The position numbers were made by a program, and so were the translations under genes. The notes below the pieces were generated by a model, which was not told where the DNA came from, searched no databases, and saw only the letters and a program-made list of their open reading frames with translations. From Anaerolineae bacterium (GTDB lineage: Bacteria > Chloroflexota > Anaerolineae > Aggregatilineales > Phototrophicaceae), in assembly GCA_030950085.1 (NCBI GenBank), contig JAUZRW010000011.1, positions 1 to 64,000 on the forward strand: 64,000 nt of DNA, in the 5' to 3' direction. Positions 1-9,996 of the stretch are shown one piece after another (the first letter of the stretch is position 1; every line of letters starts with the position of its first letter).

Positions 1-73
1 TTTCCAGTAGCAAATAGTCGTCAATAAGCCTTTCTTTATTCAGTTGTTCCAGTTCTTCTCGTTTTGTCAGCAT
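1..73 (-). CDS. Partial N-terminus of an unidentified protein, possibly a transposase
   Basis: A minus-strand frame starts at an ATG (complement of 71-73) and runs off the window edge after 24 codons, beginning MLTKREELEQLNKERLID. The stretch is charged and leucine-rich and should be helical, which resembles the N-terminal leader of some IS66-type transposases. That resemblance is only an impression from 24 residues. Its position matters: the plus-strand NACHT-type gene beside it loses its open frame at about 127, so a mobile element inserted here could explain the missing 5' part of that gene. It could equally be an ordinary short gene. Confidence 0.3.
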   Translation of the reverse strand, partial: MLTKREELEQLNKERLIDDYLLLE

Positions 74-174
74 GACTTTAGTATACTTCTTTTATTCACT
101 TTCGCTCTCCACAATCTCATGGATAGCTGAATAGATACCTCAGCAGCAACGCATTACCTGTCCCACAAATTGAA

Positions 175-2100
175 GTGCAGCCTATGGATAGCGAACAGGT
201 TCAGGCATTTATCCAAGCCTATACGCCAAACCATGCCGATTTAATTTGGACAGAATTAGACGGTTCGCCGCAATTCACCTTGTTTCAGACACCGTATTTC
301 TTGAAATTGCTCTGTGAACAGGTCGAGGCGACTCGTGAAATACCGAAGGGGCGAGCGAGTTTGTTCGCTGGCTTTGTCCGACAAGCAATTTACCGCGAAG
401 TCAATACGCCATTATTTCAGCCTGACACACTGTTGAGCGAGAAAGACCATCAGAAATTATCGTTGGGCAAGTGGCGCAATCCCTTTGATTTGCCAGAACG
501 CGGCGTGCTGATTAAGAGCCTCAGTCAATTAGCCTTTGAGATGCAAGAACAAGGCTTAGAAACCGAAGGCGCGCAAGTTCGGATTGATTATGACGATGCT
601 TGTGAACTGCTTGACCATGACCGCGATGAAGATATTCTGAAAGCCGGAGTCGCCCTCAATGTGCTAGATGAAGATATCACAGACTATGAAATTACCTTTT
701 TTCATCAGCTATTGCAAGAATTTTTTGCGGCACGGCGCTTGGCAAAAGACCCTAATCCGCAATTGGTGCATGTCGAGTGGCATATGGATAACGTCACACC
801 GCCATTAGATGAAACACTAGCCGCGCTTGCTGATGGCGACCCTTTGCCGCCTTTAGCCCAAACCGGTTGGGAAGAAACGACCTTGACAGCCGCCCCGATG
901 ATGAAAAAGCCCAATGACTTCATCCGTGCTTTGATGCCCCATAATTTAGTCATGGCGGCGCGTTGTGCAGCATCGTCCGAAATTGCTGTTGACCCTGAAC
1001 TCAAAGCTGAGATTCAAGCGGCTTTGATTGCGCGGACACAAGATATGAATGCCGATTTACGCGCTCGTATTGCAGCAGGTTTGGCATTGGGCGAGATTGG
1101 CGACCCCCGTTTTGAACTGAAAACAGGCGCACATGGCGCTTATTTGTTGCCGCCGATGGTCACTATTGAAGCGGGCAACTATACGATTGGCGACGATAAT
1201 AGCCAATATGGTGGTGAAAAACCGCAGCACAGCATAGATTTAGAAGCCTTCAAAATAGGACAGTTCGCGGTGACAAATGCTGAATATGCCCACTTTTTGG
1301 CGGCTGGTGGCTATGAGGATGAACAGTGGTGGGATACTGACGAGGCGCTGGCATGGCTGCGTGGCGAAGGCGACACTGACGGGCAAAAGCAGAGTATGCG
1401 CGATGTATGGGATTCCGTCCAATCATGGACAGATGAGAGTATCCGTGATTTAGTCGCCCAAAATCGCCTCACCAGTGAACAGGCAGATAGTTTTATTGTT
1501 ATCAAAAGTTGGAGCAAGGAACAGCTTGAATCATGGCTTGATGAACAATATCCATCGGGGCAAGTTTACCGTCTACCTGAATATTGGCATGATGCCCGTT
1601 TCAATAACCCTAATCAGCCTGTGGTGGGCATAACATGGTATGAGGCACGCGCCTATTGTCAGTGGTTGAGTGCAAATGCCCTCACCTCTATTCAATATGA
1701 ACTGCCAACAGAAGTGCAATGGGAAGCGGCAGCACGCGGCATACGGGCTTGGATTTATCCTTATGGCGCTGAATTTGATGTGCATCAGGGCAACACATTC
1801 GAGAGCCATATCCGACGCACGACACCGATTGGGATTTATAGCGCAACACCCGAAAAAATCTTTGATTTGAGTGGCAATACCTATGATTGGACGCTTTCGA
1901 TTTATGATAAAGAGCAATTTCTTTACCCCTATGATGCCAAAGATGGGCGAGAGAACATACGTTCTCCTCTCGCTCGTGTGTTGCGCGGCGGGTCTTGGAG
2001 CTTCAGTCGTAACTTTGCTCGCGCTGTGTATCGCGACAACTACTATCCAAACTCTCGTAACTTCAACAACGGTTTTCGGTTGTGTGTCTCCCTTCTCTAA
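175..2100 (+). CDS. DGR target protein: truncated NACHT/STAND remnant fused to a formylglycine-enzyme-like (C-type lectin fold) domain
   Basis: This 641-residue frame (GTG start; the frame is open from 127) is the variable protein of the retroelement. Residues 1 to about 310 look like the helical part that follows a NACHT ATPase core, with the motif FFHQLLQEFFAARRL near residue 175 that is typical of NACHT/STAND proteins. No Walker A or B motif is present, so the ATPase core is missing. From about 322 to the end lies an FGE-sulfatase domain (MVTIEAGNYTIGDD, ELPTEVQWEAAAR, LSGNTYDWT, LRGGSW, NGFRLC). Residues 599-640 are encoded by the variable repeat, between GGSW and GFR, the ligand-facing site of this fold. 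The coding similarity continues upstream of the GTG (ALPVPQIEVQPMD) to about 130 and then stops, which suggests 5' truncation of a longer gene. Function is inferred: a diversified ligand-recognition protein. Confidence 0.85.
   Translation: MQPMDSEQVQAFIQAYTPNHADLIWTELDGSPQFTLFQTPYFLKLLCEQVEATREIPKGRASLFAGFVRQAIYREVNTPLFQPDTLLSEKDHQKLSLGKWRNPFDLPERGVLIKSLSQLAFEMQEQGLETEGAQVRIDYDDACELLDHDRDEDILKAGVALNVLDEDITDYEITFFHQLLQEFFAARRLAKDPNPQLVHVEWHMDNVTPPLDETLAALADGDPLPPLAQTGWEETTLTAAPMMKKPNDFIRALMPHNLVMAARCAASSEIAVDPELKAEIQAALIARTQDMNADLRARIAAGLALGEIGDPRFELKTGAHGAYLLPPMVTIEAGNYTIGDDNSQYGGEKPQHSIDLEAFKIGQFAVTNAEYAHFLAAGGYEDEQWWDTDEALAWLRGEGDTDGQKQSMRDVWDSVQSWTDESIRDLVAQNRLTSEQADSFIVIKSWSKEQLESWLDEQYPSGQVYRLPEYWHDARFNNPNQPVVGITWYEARAYCQWLSANALTSIQYELPTEVQWEAAARGIRAWIYPYGAEFDVHQGNTFESHIRRTTPIGIYSATPEKIFDLSGNTYDWTLSIYDKEQFLYPYDAKDGRENIRSPLARVLRGGSWSFSRNFARAVYRDNYYPNSRNFNNGFRLCVSLL
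1969..2096 (+). repeat. DGR variable repeat (VR)
   Basis: These 128 bases match the reverse complement of 3810-3937 over their whole length without gaps. There are 15 mismatches in the aligned block and every one falls on an A of the template (to T, G or C). The altered positions are mostly the first two bases of AAC codons, so template Asn codons became Ser, Phe, Tyr and Asp here, and one His became Arg. The invariant flanks encode [10 protein letters not shown] and [10 protein letters not shown]. Confidence 0.95.
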
Positions 2101-2101
2101 T

Positions 2102-2115
2102 AGAACATCTGTTCT
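2102..2115. other. Small inverted repeat just after the VR
   Basis: AGAACA-TC-TGTTCT is a perfect inverted repeat that starts six bases after the end of the VR. Known DGR targets carry a short hairpin or cruciform a few bases downstream of the VR that helps retrohoming, so this could be that element. The stem is short and the role is inferred. Confidence 0.4.
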
Positions 2116-2118
2116 CTG

Positions 2119-2157
2119 TGGGGTCGGTGCGTAGCAAGCGCGTAGCGCTAGACCCCA
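2119..2157. terminator. Stem-loop between target gene and reverse transcriptase gene
   Basis: TGGGGTC (2119-2125) pairs with GACCCCA (2151-2157) around a 25-base loop that contains repeated GCGTAGC words. It lies between the convergent ends of the target gene and the RT gene and is followed by an A-rich run, so it may terminate either transcript. It could also be part of the DGR target-site structure. Confidence 0.4.
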
Positions 2158-2174
2158 TTAAAAAAATTTGAAAA

Positions 2175-3266
2175 TTAGGTCTTTTTTGGCGGTTTAATGG
2201 GGTGATTATCAAAGATATGCTTGCGTAAACCCCACGTATCGCCATAACGGACATGATTAATCCAACCTTGTACAGAGGCATCTAATTCCGCGAAGGAAAT
2301 TGCGCCATTGTGATACAAATCCAGATTACGCTCAAAACGACGGGTGAAATTGACAACATTGCGCCGCTTGAGTCTGCGGTGGGTCGGGTAAACGACAAAG
2401 CCGAGCCACGGAATCCCATGTTCGCACGGGATGACTTGTGCTTGTTCATTGTGAATCGTTAAGCGCAGGGTAGCCAGAAAATCAATCAGGGCTTTTTTCC
2501 ATGCGTACAATTGGCGCTTACTATTGCTAAAAAGTGCCGCGTCATCGACATAACGCAAATAGGCTCGACAGCCTAAGTCTTGTTGCACAAACCAATCCAA
2601 GGGATTCAGGTAGACATTGCTCCAGAATTGGCTTGTGAGATTGCCAATCGGTAAGCCGCGTCCACGATGCACAGCGAATAAGTCATCACCCTCAAAGTAG
2701 ACCATCTCATATTCTTCTGCGAGGACACCTTCGCCACTATGTATAATTTTCTGCACCAAATCCATAACTTCATCATCGCGGATGCTATCGGCGATAATGT
2801 CATATAGAATAGAATGGTCAATTGAGGGAAAATGTTTCACAATATCGACACGCAAAACATAGCGATATTGCTGCGAGTAGGCTTGTAGACGTTCTAATGC
2901 GCGATGTGTGCCTTTAGCGACACGATTGGCATAACTATCCTCGATGAATTGCGCTTCAAAAATGGGTTCAATGATATTGCACAAGGCATGATGCACAACC
3001 CTATCTCGAAAGGGGGCAGCGCTGATTTTACGTTGTTTGGGGTCATGAATCATGAAGTTGACATAAGCACCGGGTTGATAGCGCTTGTGGATGAGTTCAT
3101 CTTGTAATTGCCATAAATGGTCTGCGAGTTGATGCTCAAAAGTTGCGGCAGAACCTTTGCCACGTTTGCGCTTAGAGGCTTTACGATAGGCAAGCAGCAA
3201 ATTTGACCAATCCGTGATTTGAGAGAAAAGCGAATTTTCTATGTCCAATGATATGATTATCCTCAC
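2175..3266 (-). CDS. DGR-type reverse transcriptase
   Basis: This 363-residue protein is the retroelement polymerase. It shows the RT palm motifs: [11 protein letters not shown] with the first catalytic Asp near 141, [16 protein letters not shown] near 205-220, and YVDD at 239-242. The IGxxxSQ form of motif 4, in place of the QGxxxSP of most reverse transcriptases, is the signature of DGR enzymes, as is the compact size without extra domains. The listed start is a GTG; a TTG about 17 bases downstream (MDIENSLF) is an alternative. It copies the template repeat RNA with errors at adenines and supplies the cDNA that replaces the VR. It overlaps the 5' end of the opposite-strand avd gene by a few bases and lies downstream of the template repeat on the same strand. 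Confidence 0.95.
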
Positions 3267-3579
3267 CCGTACCTTTGATTTATTGGCATGGATATTACCA
3301 AAATCTGAGAAATTCCCAAAAGTTTACCGTTTTACTATTACACAACGGTTGATGAACGCCGCTTTGGATTTTCAAGAAGCACTGTTCGATGCACATAGTC
3401 AAGCAGGAAGTACACGCCGCAAACATTTACGCGCTGCCGATGCCCATCTGAATAAATTGCGCCTCTATTTACGCTTGATACATCATTGGAAATGGCTCAA
3501 TGATGGGCAATATAAGCATGTGATCGTCATGATTACCGAAATTGGACGGCTTTTAGGTGGCTGGATAAAAGCCTCATAA
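3253..3579 (+). CDS. avd: Avd-like four-helix-bundle accessory protein of the DGR
   Basis: The protein of about 108 residues reads [20 protein letters not shown] at its start and ends with [15 protein letters not shown], a pattern shared by Avd proteins (DILxxTYDLLxWxxPxxEKFPR... and EIGRLLGGW). Avd forms a positively charged barrel-shaped pentamer that binds the reverse transcriptase and the template RNA and is needed for mutagenic copying. An ATG twelve bases upstream is possible; the chosen start matches the family. Oddly the gene lies on the strand opposite to the RT and the template repeat, with the avd and RT 5' ends overlapping, so its promoter must lie inside the RT gene. Confidence 0.85.
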
Positions 3580-3809
3580 GCCACAAACGGGCTTCAATGC
3601 CCGCCGTGGGTTTTGTATGCGTCCGACGGTCTGCACCTTGTCACAGGCGTATCCGTGCGGTCAGGAATCATCTGCGCCTTCTCTAATACTCCGCCTCGGC
3701 AAAGAAACCGTAGTCGCCTTGCATTTCTGGAAGCCGCTTTGCCCTGATAAAAGGGGACGGCTCATTGATGGGCTAACGATGCCCATATCAATCTTATGGA
3801 GGGACACAC
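3580..3809. other. Spacer between avd and the template repeat
   Basis: I see no gene here. On the minus strand this is the segment directly downstream of the template repeat, which in other DGRs holds RNA structure needed for priming and for RT-Avd binding. It contains paired GC-rich words (for example GGGCTTCAATGCCC near 3590), so a structured RNA is plausible but unproven. Confidence 0.4.
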
Positions 3810-3937
3810 AGAAGTGAGACACACAACCGAAAACCGTTGTTGTTGTTACGATTGTTTGGATTGTTGTTGTTGCGATACACAGCGCGAGCATTGTTATGAT
3901 TGTTGTTCCAAGACCCGCCGCGCAACACACGAGCGAG
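3810..3937 (-). repeat. DGR template repeat (TR)
   Basis: Read on the minus strand this segment carries runs of AAC codons (encoding strings of Asn between GGSW and GFR) and is otherwise identical to the VR. Adenine-only differences and the absence of any plausible gene around it identify it as the invariant template. It lies upstream of the RT on the RT strand, with the opposite-strand avd gene between them. Confidence 0.95.
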
Positions 3938-4004: not shown

Positions 4005-4165
4005 GCAAAATTCTTTGCGCCCTCCACCCTTGGCATCTTTGCCTTAAGCATTATCTGAAAATATAGTCCGATAATTGTTTAGAAAAAAGCGTAACACAGA
4101 GGAGCAGAGGGATTTTTGAATAGCATTCTTTGTGTCCTTCGCGCCTTTGTGGTTCAAATTGCCTT
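4005..4165. repeat. Degenerate copy of the 'GCGTAACGCAAAGATGCAAAG' repeat family
   Basis: The stretch contains TTTGCGCC, TGGCATCTTTGCC and GCGTAACACAGAGGAGC words that recur at 8325-8400, 22945-23098, 57615-57720 and 61925-62145. No gene is seen. Confidence 0.5.
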
Positions 4166-4199: not shown

Positions 4200-4763
4200 T
4201 TAAACGTTGAAAATTGCTTTCACACTAATATTTTCACCCAGTACGATGGACTCAAACGATTCATCATTCGCAAATGCACCTTGCCGAATGTAGCGACCCT
4301 CTTCGCCTAAGTTCCAGATTTCAACAACTTCATAAATAGGGTCAACAATCCAGTATTCATCAACACCGTGTTTCTCATAGGCTTGATATTTTTCTTGGCG
4401 GTCAAATTTTGCAGTGCTTGGGGATAAAACCTCTACTACCAGATTTGGCGCACCCATAATGCGTTTTTCGTCTTGCTGCGTGATAGCAAGATTATTAGCT
4501 TGGATAAACAGCACATCTGGCTCAAACACATTGTTGTCATCGAGGCGGACTTCAGTGGGAGCAGGAAATGCGATACCACCTGTCTTGGCTTCTATTGCTA
4601 TAAGCAAGGCTAGAATCCTCTTGACGATTAGTTGATATTTCAGTATGGGTGGCATAGCAATAATCACCTCGCCGTTGATGAGTTGAATTAAATCATGCTG
4701 GTGATATTCTGGGAGTTCGTAATACTCAGCCGTGTTGATGCGCGTGCGCGTCGGTTGTACCAT
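4200..4763 (-). CDS. Uma2 (DUF820) family PD-(D/E)XK endonuclease-like protein
   Basis: The 187-residue product has the family's core signature: FEPDVLFI (the acidic residue of the nuclease core), LVVEVLSPSTAKFDRQEK and VDEYWIVDP. Uma2 proteins are abundant in Cyanobacteria and Chloroflexota in many copies; they have a restriction-nuclease fold and no firmly known role. The start is an ATG preceded by GAGGT at about seven bases; a TTG 18 bases upstream is less likely. It stands alone, with repeats on both sides. Confidence 0.85.
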   Translation of the reverse strand: MVQPTRTRINTAEYYELPEYHQHDLIQLINGEVIIAMPPILKYQLIVKRILALLIAIEAKTGGIAFPAPTEVRLDDNNVFEPDVLFIQANNLAITQQDEKRIMGAPNLVVEVLSPSTAKFDRQEKYQAYEKHGVDEYWIVDPIYEVVEIWNLGEEGRYIRQGAFANDESFESIVLGENISVKAIFNV

Positions 4764-4860
4764 AGCGAGACCTCTTGACAACTAGCTTACGATGATTATA
4801 TCACTGAAAGGACAGTTCATGTCTATTGTCTAAAAATAGAGTCCTAAAAATCTCTGGAAA

Positions 4861-4950
4861 AAGCCCCTTTCGGGGTTTCACCGCGCCTCACACAAAATAA
4901 CAAGGTGAGATAGAGTCTATAGGTTTAATAGAGGTAAGATGTTAAACAAG
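4861..4950 (+). repeat. 90-bp repeat with CCCCTTTCGGGG hairpin, copy 1
   Basis: The element starts with GCCCCTTTCGGGGTTTCACC, continues with GCGCCTCACACAAAAT, and ends with GTTAAACAAG. Four other copies are at 7104-7192, 9791-9879, 47831-47919 and 56835-56923. Confidence 0.8.
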
Positions 4951-4981
4951 AAAACGGACGGATACATTGCCCCGTCCGTTT
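4940..4981 (-). terminator. Rho-independent terminator of ftsH
   Basis: AAACGGACGG (4952-4961) pairs perfectly with CCGTCCGTTT (4972-4981). Read on the minus strand the stem is followed by TTCTTGTTT. It lies 24 bases after the ftsH stop codon. Confidence 0.8.
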
Positions 4982-7020: not shown

Positions 7021-7103
7021 GCGAAATATTGTCTATCGCTATCAGTTTCTATAACCATAGACCCAAGCGCGTGGCAAAAGGTGACAAATTGGAGCGTTAT
7101 AAT

Positions 7104-7192
7104 CTTGTTTAACAAAGTATTTCTGATAAACCTGTAAATTCTGTCTCACTTTATAATTTTGTGTGAGGCGCGATGAAACCCCGAAAGGGGCT
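7104..7192 (-). repeat. 90-bp repeat with CCCCTTTCGGGG hairpin, copy 2
   Basis: On the minus strand the element begins within eight bases of the stop codon of the GT2 gene, and its hairpin with following TTTCAT may act as that gene's terminator. The far end is CTTGTTTAACAA, as in the other copies. Confidence 0.8.
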
Positions 7193-7198
7193 ATTTCA

Positions 7199-8200: not shown

Positions 8201-8472
8201 CTAAATTACGCCTATCTAATACTTTCTGAACACGATAATACAACTCAAGATATACTAAATAGAGATTTCATTGCTGGCAAGTTTTATAAACTTATTCATA
8301 AAAATATGTAACCTTCGATAGATTTTTATAAGACGCTTAACGCAAAGATGCAAAGAGTGGAAGGCGCAGAGAAAATTTTTGAACTTGAATCTTACCGTAG
8401 GTTACTATTATTTTATATTTTTCTAAACTTCATCACTTCACAACAGAACATCTGTATAATAAAGGAATAGCC
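8201..8472. other. Intergenic region with repeat remnants
   Basis: No gene is seen. 8308-8400 contains GTAACCTTCGATAGATTTTTA and AACGCAAAGATGCAAAG words shared with 22850-23098 and 52890-52975. The strand ends in AT-rich sequence with TGTATAATAAAGGA just before the next small frame. Confidence 0.4.
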
Positions 8473-8599: not shown

Positions 8600-8938
8600 A
8601 TGAATCAATATATGTACACGCTACAAGTGACCCGCCTAGAAATGCTGCTCCAAGCGGTGCGTCCCGAACAGGTTGCCGAGCCAACAGAATGGGAACAAGA
8701 ACGAGTCAGTGAACATTTCATGTATCTGCAAGAAAATACTGAAAAAGGTGTGTTCTGCATGGTCGGTCTCACTGCGAATACCGATTATAGTATGTTTGGG
8801 ATGGGCGTTATTCGGGCAAAAAGTCATTCAGAAGCATGGGAAATCGGTAAAAATGACCCTGCGGTGATTAATCGTGTTATGCGCCTAGATATCTTGCCTT
8901 TCAGCATTGCGATGGTCAAAAAAGAAACCATCATATGA
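8600..8938 (+). CDS. YCII-like (YciI superfamily) small protein
   Basis: The 112-residue product (MNQYMYTLQVTRLEM... EHFMYLQENTEKGVFCMVG ... GMGVIRAKSHSEAWEIGKNDPAVINRVMRLDILPFSIAM) has the YciI plan: an 'EHfxYL' helix with the conserved His, then a Gly-rich turn and an 'A..I...DP.v' helix, in a ferredoxin-like fold of about 100 residues. Most family members have no known function; some are enzymes or domains of fused regulators. The start is fixed by GAAGGGA nine bases upstream. Longer upstream starts would run through the CPKC mini-frame in another phase and are unlikely. Confidence 0.6.
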   Translation: MNQYMYTLQVTRLEMLLQAVRPEQVAEPTEWEQERVSEHFMYLQENTEKGVFCMVGLTANTDYSMFGMGVIRAKSHSEAWEIGKNDPAVINRVMRLDILPFSIAMVKKETII

Positions 8939-9085
8939 GGCAGCACCTTTCATCGGCGTGCAGCAATTCCAATTTATTTAAAAACATTATCGACAGCGAA
9001 CATTCGTGCGACAACCGCTACCCTCTGTGGCAGTTTTGCTTTATACTGAATTGAACGATGGTCTAGGCTATACGACATACTAATC

Positions 9086-9115
9086 GTAGGGGCTTTGCAC
9101 ACACCAAATCCCTAC
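9086..9115. repeat. GTAGGGGCG-family palindrome, degenerate
   Basis: GTAGGGG ... TCCCTAC with an interrupted centre; it lies 50 bases upstream of the transposase gene of this repeat type. Confidence 0.5.
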
Positions 9116-9167
9116 AAATACAATTTATATTTGCTGAAGATGACTTGTTCTCTTGAGGAATACCCAT

Positions 9168-9791
9168 ATGACCCAAAACAACAAACATCAGCGCCGTTCG
9201 ATACGATTGCCGCATTATGATTATGCTGATGAGGGTGCATATTTTGTAACAATATGCACATATGAACGGGTTTGTTTGTTCGGAACTGTCGATACAACAG
9301 AAGATGCCATGACATTAAATACATTCGAGCGCTTTGTATGGGATGAATGGGAGAAAACAGGTCAATTGCGCGATAATGTCAGATTAGACCGATTTGTGGT
9401 AATGCCCAATCATGTGCATGGTATTATTTGGATTACAGAAAATACCAATCAGCAAGAGCAAAAAAACGAGGCAAAGGTAGATACCAAATCACCTGAAAAC
9501 GTAGGGGCGCAGCGCGCTACGCCCCTACACCTACCTCCTCTCGGTGCAACCCATAATAATGTTAAGCCTAGTTCATTAGGTGCAATTGTTCGTTCATTCA
9601 AATCTGCTGTGACCAAACGCATTAATACCTACCGTAGTACACTCGGCGGAATTGTTTGGCAACGGAATTATTGGGAACGAATCATTCGTAATGATGAGGA
9701 ACTGAACTGGCTACGATGGTATATTGATAATAATCCTGCACGCTGGAAAAAAGACAAATTGTACGTATCAAAGTCGGACATAATGAAATAA
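9168..9791 (+). CDS. REP-associated tyrosine transposase (RAYT, Y1/HUH family)
   Basis: The 207-residue protein is a domesticated-type transposase related to IS200/IS605 TnpA. It has the N-terminal signature YFVTICTYER, the HUH motif MPNHVHGIIW (near 80-90), and the C-terminal nucleophile region WQRNYWERIIRNDEELNWLRWYIDNNPARW, where the Tyr of NYWERII is the expected catalytic residue. RAYTs cut and join single-stranded REP palindromes. The ATG follows GAGGAA; a TTG 15 bases upstream is less likely. Strikingly the coding sequence itself contains a GTAGGGGCG palindrome (9501-9528), read as NVGAQRATPL within the spacer between the HUH and Tyr motifs. Its stop codon touches a 90-bp repeat. Confidence 0.9.
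   Translation: MTQNNKHQRRSIRLPHYDYADEGAYFVTICTYERVCLFGTVDTTEDAMTLNTFERFVWDEWEKTGQLRDNVRLDRFVVMPNHVHGIIWITENTNQQEQKNEAKVDTKSPENVGAQRATPLHLPPLGATHNNVKPSSLGAIVRSFKSAVTKRINTYRSTLGGIVWQRNYWERIIRNDEELNWLRWYIDNNPARWKKDKLYVSKSDIMK
9501..9528. repeat. GTAGGGGCG palindrome inside the transposase gene
   Basis: GTAGGGGCG and CGCCCCTAC flank the centre CAGCGCGCTA. Of 14 base pairs only one is mismatched. It is in frame and sits in a variable linker of the protein. Confidence 0.85.
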
Positions 9792-9879
9792 GCTCCTTTC
9801 GGGGTTTCACCACACCTCACACAAAATTGCAATGTGAGCGCGTGTTTACAGGTTCAATATAGTAACTTTGTTAAACAAG
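9791..9879 (+). repeat. 90-bp repeat with CTCCTTTCGGGG hairpin, copy 3
   Basis: It begins at the last base of the transposase stop codon (TAAGCTCCTTTCGGGG) and ends in TTTGTTAAACAAG. One base of the hairpin differs from the other copies. Confidence 0.8.
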
Positions 9880-9897
9880 AGTTTGGCACGCCAGACC

Positions 9898-9996
9898 ACT
9901 ACTACACGACCAAAAAAGTTTTTATGTAGGGGCGCAATGCATTGCGCCCGAAAAACACAAATCTAATCATCAAGAATTAAATTGGTCAAGTACTAC
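9898..9996. mobile_element. MITE-like element, copy 1
   Basis: A 99-base unit with inverted ends (ACTACTACACGACCAA and TTGGTCAAGTACTAC) holds a GTAGGGGCG palindrome (9926-9949). A nearly identical copy is at 52696-52794 and a shorter relative at 52795-52880. It lies just before the HerA-like gene. Confidence 0.75.

Follow-up and report, generated by a model that had tools for sequence, protein, structure and literature searches.

The window, meaning the whole 64,000-nucleotide stretch of DNA that was analysed (positions 1 to 64,000 of contig JAUZRW010000011.1 of an Anaerolineae bacterium, assembly GCA_030950085.1), begins at the first base of its contig and carries a diversity-generating retroelement (DGR) close to that end. 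A repeat search of the window found an inverted repeat of 128 nt, 1969-2096 and 3810-3937, with 88% identity between the two copies. When the plus-strand copy was aligned with the minus-strand copy, 15 mismatches were found over the 128 nt, and all 15 were opposite an adenine of the minus-strand copy, which identifies 3810-3937 (minus strand) as the template repeat (TR) and 1969-2096 (plus strand) as the variable repeat (VR). From TR to VR the changes were nine A to T, four A to G and two A to C, and 14 of the 15 affected the first or second position of a codon. The TR contains 34 adenines in its 128 nt, and the probability that all of the mismatches would fall on adenine by chance was 1.4e-10, ruling out a chance alignment of the two repeats. 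The 15 AAY codons of the TR would allow approximately 7e18 different proteins. The adenine-only divergence over 128 bases reported in the initial annotation of this DNA was therefore borne out, and its statement that the system has been active holds for the past, as judged from the VR; at present the system may or may not be active. The initial annotation had also proposed a genome search for further VRs matching this TR. No VR matching this TR other than 1969-2096 was found in the genome, and the two other matches were the TRs of two further DGRs on contigs C23 and C201. No genome of the same strain or genus was present among the genomes searched for comparison of the VR.

The reverse transcriptase (RT) is encoded by a single uninterrupted ORF at 2175-3266 on the minus strand (363 aa), which contains both the IGNLTSQ and the YVDD motifs and matched the RVT_1 profile (2e-17) and the DGR RT family phrog_1423 (2e-109), in agreement with the DGR-type RT that had been recognised from the same motifs. 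The accessory protein gene avd, at 3241-3579, is located between the TR and the RT gene on the plus strand, antisense to both; its product matched bAvd (4e-19) and NCBIfam DivGenRetAVD above the cut-off. An Avd-like protein had been noted previously, and its plus-strand orientation had gone unmentioned. The closest RT (71-72% identical) was found on a contig filed as viral in IMG/VR, locus L125, in a DGR cassette with two targets; the closest full-length target was on the same contig, and L125 was the sole close relative in the IMG/VR search. Differences between the two RT genes were distributed as 82, 55 and 205 over the first, second and third codon positions, and this excess at third positions is as expected under purifying selection. 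The adenine-only TR/VR divergence, together with the intact RT and Avd, clearly identifies the cassette as a genuine DGR of a known kind.

The VR is located at the 3′ end of ORF 175-2100, which is open for 641 aa, has candidate starts at GTG 175 and ATG 184, and ends in an FGE-sulfatase domain (2e-46), in keeping with the earlier placement of the variable codons in the GGSW...GFR part of an FGE/C-type-lectin domain. The AlphaFold model of this domain had a pLDDT of 85 and its fold matched FGE and EgtB (Foldseek E 2e-15); its sequence matched the Treponema denticola variable protein 2y3c weakly. The ORF had been annotated as a gene, but it was found to be only the 3′ fragment of an interrupted one. 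Its homology to relatives begins in the middle of the NACHT domain, and the full-length homologous targets of relatives are mostly about 900-1400 aa long, with the P-loop in one frame. By homology, the 3′ part of the target gene covers 139-2100 (plus strand) and comprises the end of the NACHT region and the FGE/CLec domain. When the N-terminal half of a full-length relative was used as query, the 5′ half was found on contig C172 at 8825-9979, 71% identical and ending 25 nt from the end of that contig. This 5′ part (L138:2481-3989 in the locus set) carries EAD8, TIR and the NACHT P-loop, and it stops where the half in the window starts.

Both halves end at the same insertion sequence (IS). Window positions 1-138 (minus strand) are one end of the IS, containing the 5′ end of a transposase ORF that reads off the contig and a terminal inverted repeat at 115-138, and they recur at approximately 100% identity in at least 24 places in the genome, nearly all of them contig ends. 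The next 8 bp, CTCAGCAG at 139-146, are also found at the end of C172, directly before the inverted repeat of the same IS. The C-terminus of the transposase, at the other IS end, matched IS66 profile NF033517 with E=1e-4, below the family cut-off. Where the same IS has inserted a second time, across C154 and C83, a different 8-bp duplication is present, CTGTAGGG. The inserted element, seen from its ends as a full copy is absent from the assembly, is thus high-copy and, as far as the transposase sequence indicates, IS66-like. As the two halves of the gene are on different contigs, their joining rests on the identical 8-bp duplication, the inverted repeats and the homology. On this sequence evidence, the TR has a single matching target, an EAD8-TIR-NACHT-FGE STAND protein whose gene, in this assembly, is broken by an IS66-like element. 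The DGR had been called complete at the outset; this stands for the RT, Avd, TR and VR and fails for the target gene, and the antisense avd, a conserved RNA 3′ of the TR and the two further DGRs of the genome had escaped notice. The split is damage to a member of the DGRs and not a sign of another family. A second EAD8 ORF, of at least 129 aa and cut off by the end of its contig, was found elsewhere in the genome (G000:C128:2956-3255); its product could be an adapter that partners the split target.

The intergenic stretch between the TR and avd was strongly conserved among relatives. A structured spacer RNA was located there at 3579-3733 (minus strand), 77 nt 3′ of the TR, with two covarying helices in the model and more hairpins upstream and downstream. 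In a structure-blind alignment of 21 loci, RNAalifold predicted 25 pairs, 18 of them changed on both sides. In an alignment of 49 sequences, 95.5% of cells were paired and 198 double-sided changes were counted, compared to 59 ± 8 for shuffled data and no more than 45 after sliding; this larger alignment was fitted to the structure, so that the 21-locus result is the cleaner one. A model built from the core of the RNA, R1, gave 59 matches when searched against 92 loci. In all 51 R1-matched loci with a called TR, the RNA followed the TR on its 3′ side, at a distance of 5-183 nt and on the same strand; the matches included loci with avd in the sense orientation and loci with the TR flipped relative to the RT (L062, L076, L115). 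No R1 match was found behind a VR, and no corresponding family was found in Rfam. A further model, R2, found the RNA 3′ of the TR on C23 (E=0.0012) and, weakly, on C201. When 249 genomes of the class were scanned with R2, matches were found in 44. Of 29 hit loci inspected, 8 of which overlap loci used earlier, 26 had an Avd or a DGR RT no more than 1.5 kb away, and two (L176 and L184) had a TR-VR pair beside the RNA with neither RT nor Avd within that distance; it is possible that these two templates are served in trans.

The spacer of the phage DGR BPP-1 has been reported to fold, to recruit bRT-Avd and to prime cDNA synthesis (PMC12875486), and its structure is predicted to be conserved according to a review (PMC8867640). 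By analogy, the RNA described here most likely does the same job, recruiting RT-Avd and starting cDNA synthesis. No significant similarity between it and the BPP-1 spacer was detected with R1 and R2 with filters off or by pairwise alignment against shuffles, so that the proposed equivalence and priming role rest on position. The BPP-1 DGR shares with the window DGR an RT, Avd, TR and VR, adenine-specific substitution, a CLec-type target and a folded spacer RNA 3′ of the TR. In contrast, its genes and template follow the order avd-TR-RT on one strand and its target is a tail fibre, whereas in the window avd is antisense and the TR and VR are on opposite strands.

The two further DGRs of the genome, on C23 (L005 9953-13197) and C201 (L006 5981-9306), likewise have Avd, a TR, an adenine-biased VR and an FGE target, and their RTs are 53% identical to that of the window. 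They differ in that target, RT, avd and TR are co-directional in the canonical order on one strand, compared to the antisense avd of the window DGR, and in that their targets are TIR-FGE proteins of about 530-545 aa without the NACHT domain found in the window target. Mismatches were at template adenines in 16 of 16 cases on C23 and 27 of 31 on C201; since the other four of the 31 are at non-A template bases, the C201 VR may have drifted. In another locus of the comparison set (L046:127-4020), the DGR target has a DUF559 nuclease-like domain inside the FGE region.

In a survey of gene order across 94 DGR loci, the order TR, antisense avd, RT recurred, usually with a target upstream of the TR, a second, convergent target downstream of the RT, or both. 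A tree built from 89 RTs was divided by a branch labelled 99*: on one side were 41 RTs with antisense avd and two for which no avd was seen, and on the other 43 RTs with sense avd and one exception, L115. Members of the antisense clade, under the organism names of their MAG records, came from Chloroflexota, Accumulibacter and other Rhodocyclaceae, Nitrosomonas, Methylococcaceae, Chromatiaceae and others, and the window RT grouped with those of Accumulibacter and Nitrosomonas. Dore et al. 2024 (PMC10907252) describe clade 5D, which includes Accumulibacter and Nitrosomonas, as having two targets and STAND NTPases, with EAD8 and TIR domains and with some loci disrupted by transposons. The antisense-avd clade fits this published clade, being placed there by description rather than by a joint tree. 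Clade 5D (within DGR RT clade 5 of Roux 2021) shares with the window DGR cellular Chloroflexi hosts, a central STAND NTPase with C-terminal CLec/FGE, the EAD8 adapter, TIR effectors and transposon-disrupted loci; the window target has the STAND NTPase and the C-terminal FGE when both halves are counted. Two targets are common in clade 5D without being obligatory, whereas the window DGR has one, split by the IS within NACHT. The second target that relatives frequently have upstream of the TR was absent from the window locus. A Uma2-family endonuclease-like gene at 4200-4781 (minus strand) occupies that site. In the passages of PMC10907252 consulted, no discussion of avd orientation, no antisense avd and no covarying spacer RNA were found. 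Cassettes are sorted by TR, VR and RT only in PMC6642488.

Taken as a mechanism, the TR and the folded spacer RNA would be read leftwards into a single non-coding transcript; RT and Avd would bind the spacer, cDNA synthesis would begin within or close to it, random bases would be placed opposite template adenines as the TR is copied, and the resulting cDNA would take the place of the VR in the target gene, at its 3′ end. That gene encodes, or once encoded, a STAND protein of immune type with the C-terminal FGE/CLec domain as its presumed variable sensor. As the IS66-like element has inserted within the NACHT region, the cassette would now diversify the 3′ half of a split gene, its RT and Avd machinery apparently intact and its sole matching target disrupted. 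As a whole, we consider this reading very probable: a cellular DGR with apparently intact machinery, which would now diversify the 3′ half of the IS-split STAND target, with the folded spacer RNA acting behind the TR.

Four other readings were weighed against this one. The cassette might be a relic, unexpressed and drifting after the loss of its target; the only matching target is split, and the upstream second target often seen in relatives is lacking, but no decay was seen in the RT, Avd, TR or spacer RNA, and a recent insertion is suggested by how little the IS copies differ and by the exactness of the duplication, which makes a relic rather doubtful. Alternatively, the cassette might be fully working, with ORF 175-2100 encoding a shortened FGE sensor whose promoter would lie within the IS end or close to it. 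The 641-aa open frame with its two candidate starts would allow this, and the short targets without NACHT on C23 and C201 give it a precedent; against this, homology starts within the NACHT domain, no promoter-like site was found on the plus strand from 1 to 175, and C172 carries the matching 5′ half together with the identical duplication, so that we regard it as unlikely.

The split might also have arisen in assembly or binning, with the target intact in most cells. Contigs break at nearly every copy of the IS in this assembly of 266 contigs, and intact and transposon-interrupted DGR alleles are described as coexisting in Thiohalocapsa (PMC10907252). However, both IS junctions were assembled, and at each of them the identical 8-bp duplication stands beside the inverted repeat, which an artefact would not create, and we find this explanation quite improbable. 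That the conserved RNA behind the TR serves in termination or regulation, instead of as an RT-recruiting spacer, seems very unlikely: a hairpin at its 3′ end does stand between the convergent TR and avd transcripts, but the RNA trails the TR even where the latter is flipped, it also follows the TR in loci without avd downstream, its conserved helices are internal, and none of its matches is behind a VR.

Two other sets of repeats were noted in the window. An interspersed repeat of approximately 95 nt (4857-4951 and 7103-7197) occurs at least 40 times in the genome, with 83-94% identity, and is MITE- or REP-like; a 55-nt inverted repeat pair with 80% identity (4011-4065 and 8319-8373) is intergenic and perhaps belongs to another small repeat family.

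The window DGR adds a further example of a hypermutated STAND-type sensor. Here a transposon divided the target and left the machinery intact, so that a DGR call made from TR, VR and RT alone can miss a broken target. The conserved spacer RNA marks the whole group of elements to which the window DGR belongs. It is an evenly balanced proposition that the TR and the covarying spacer RNA form a self-contained unit of cellular DGRs in many phyla, moving and flipping independently of RT, avd and target and sometimes found without an RT within 1.5 kb, which could serve as a specific template marker and may represent an undescribed RNA family. The covarying RNA recognises templates whatever the gene order. 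For cellular DGRs distant from the Bordetella model, it offers a handle, in both sequence and structure, on the segment of the DGR RNA that would recruit the enzyme.
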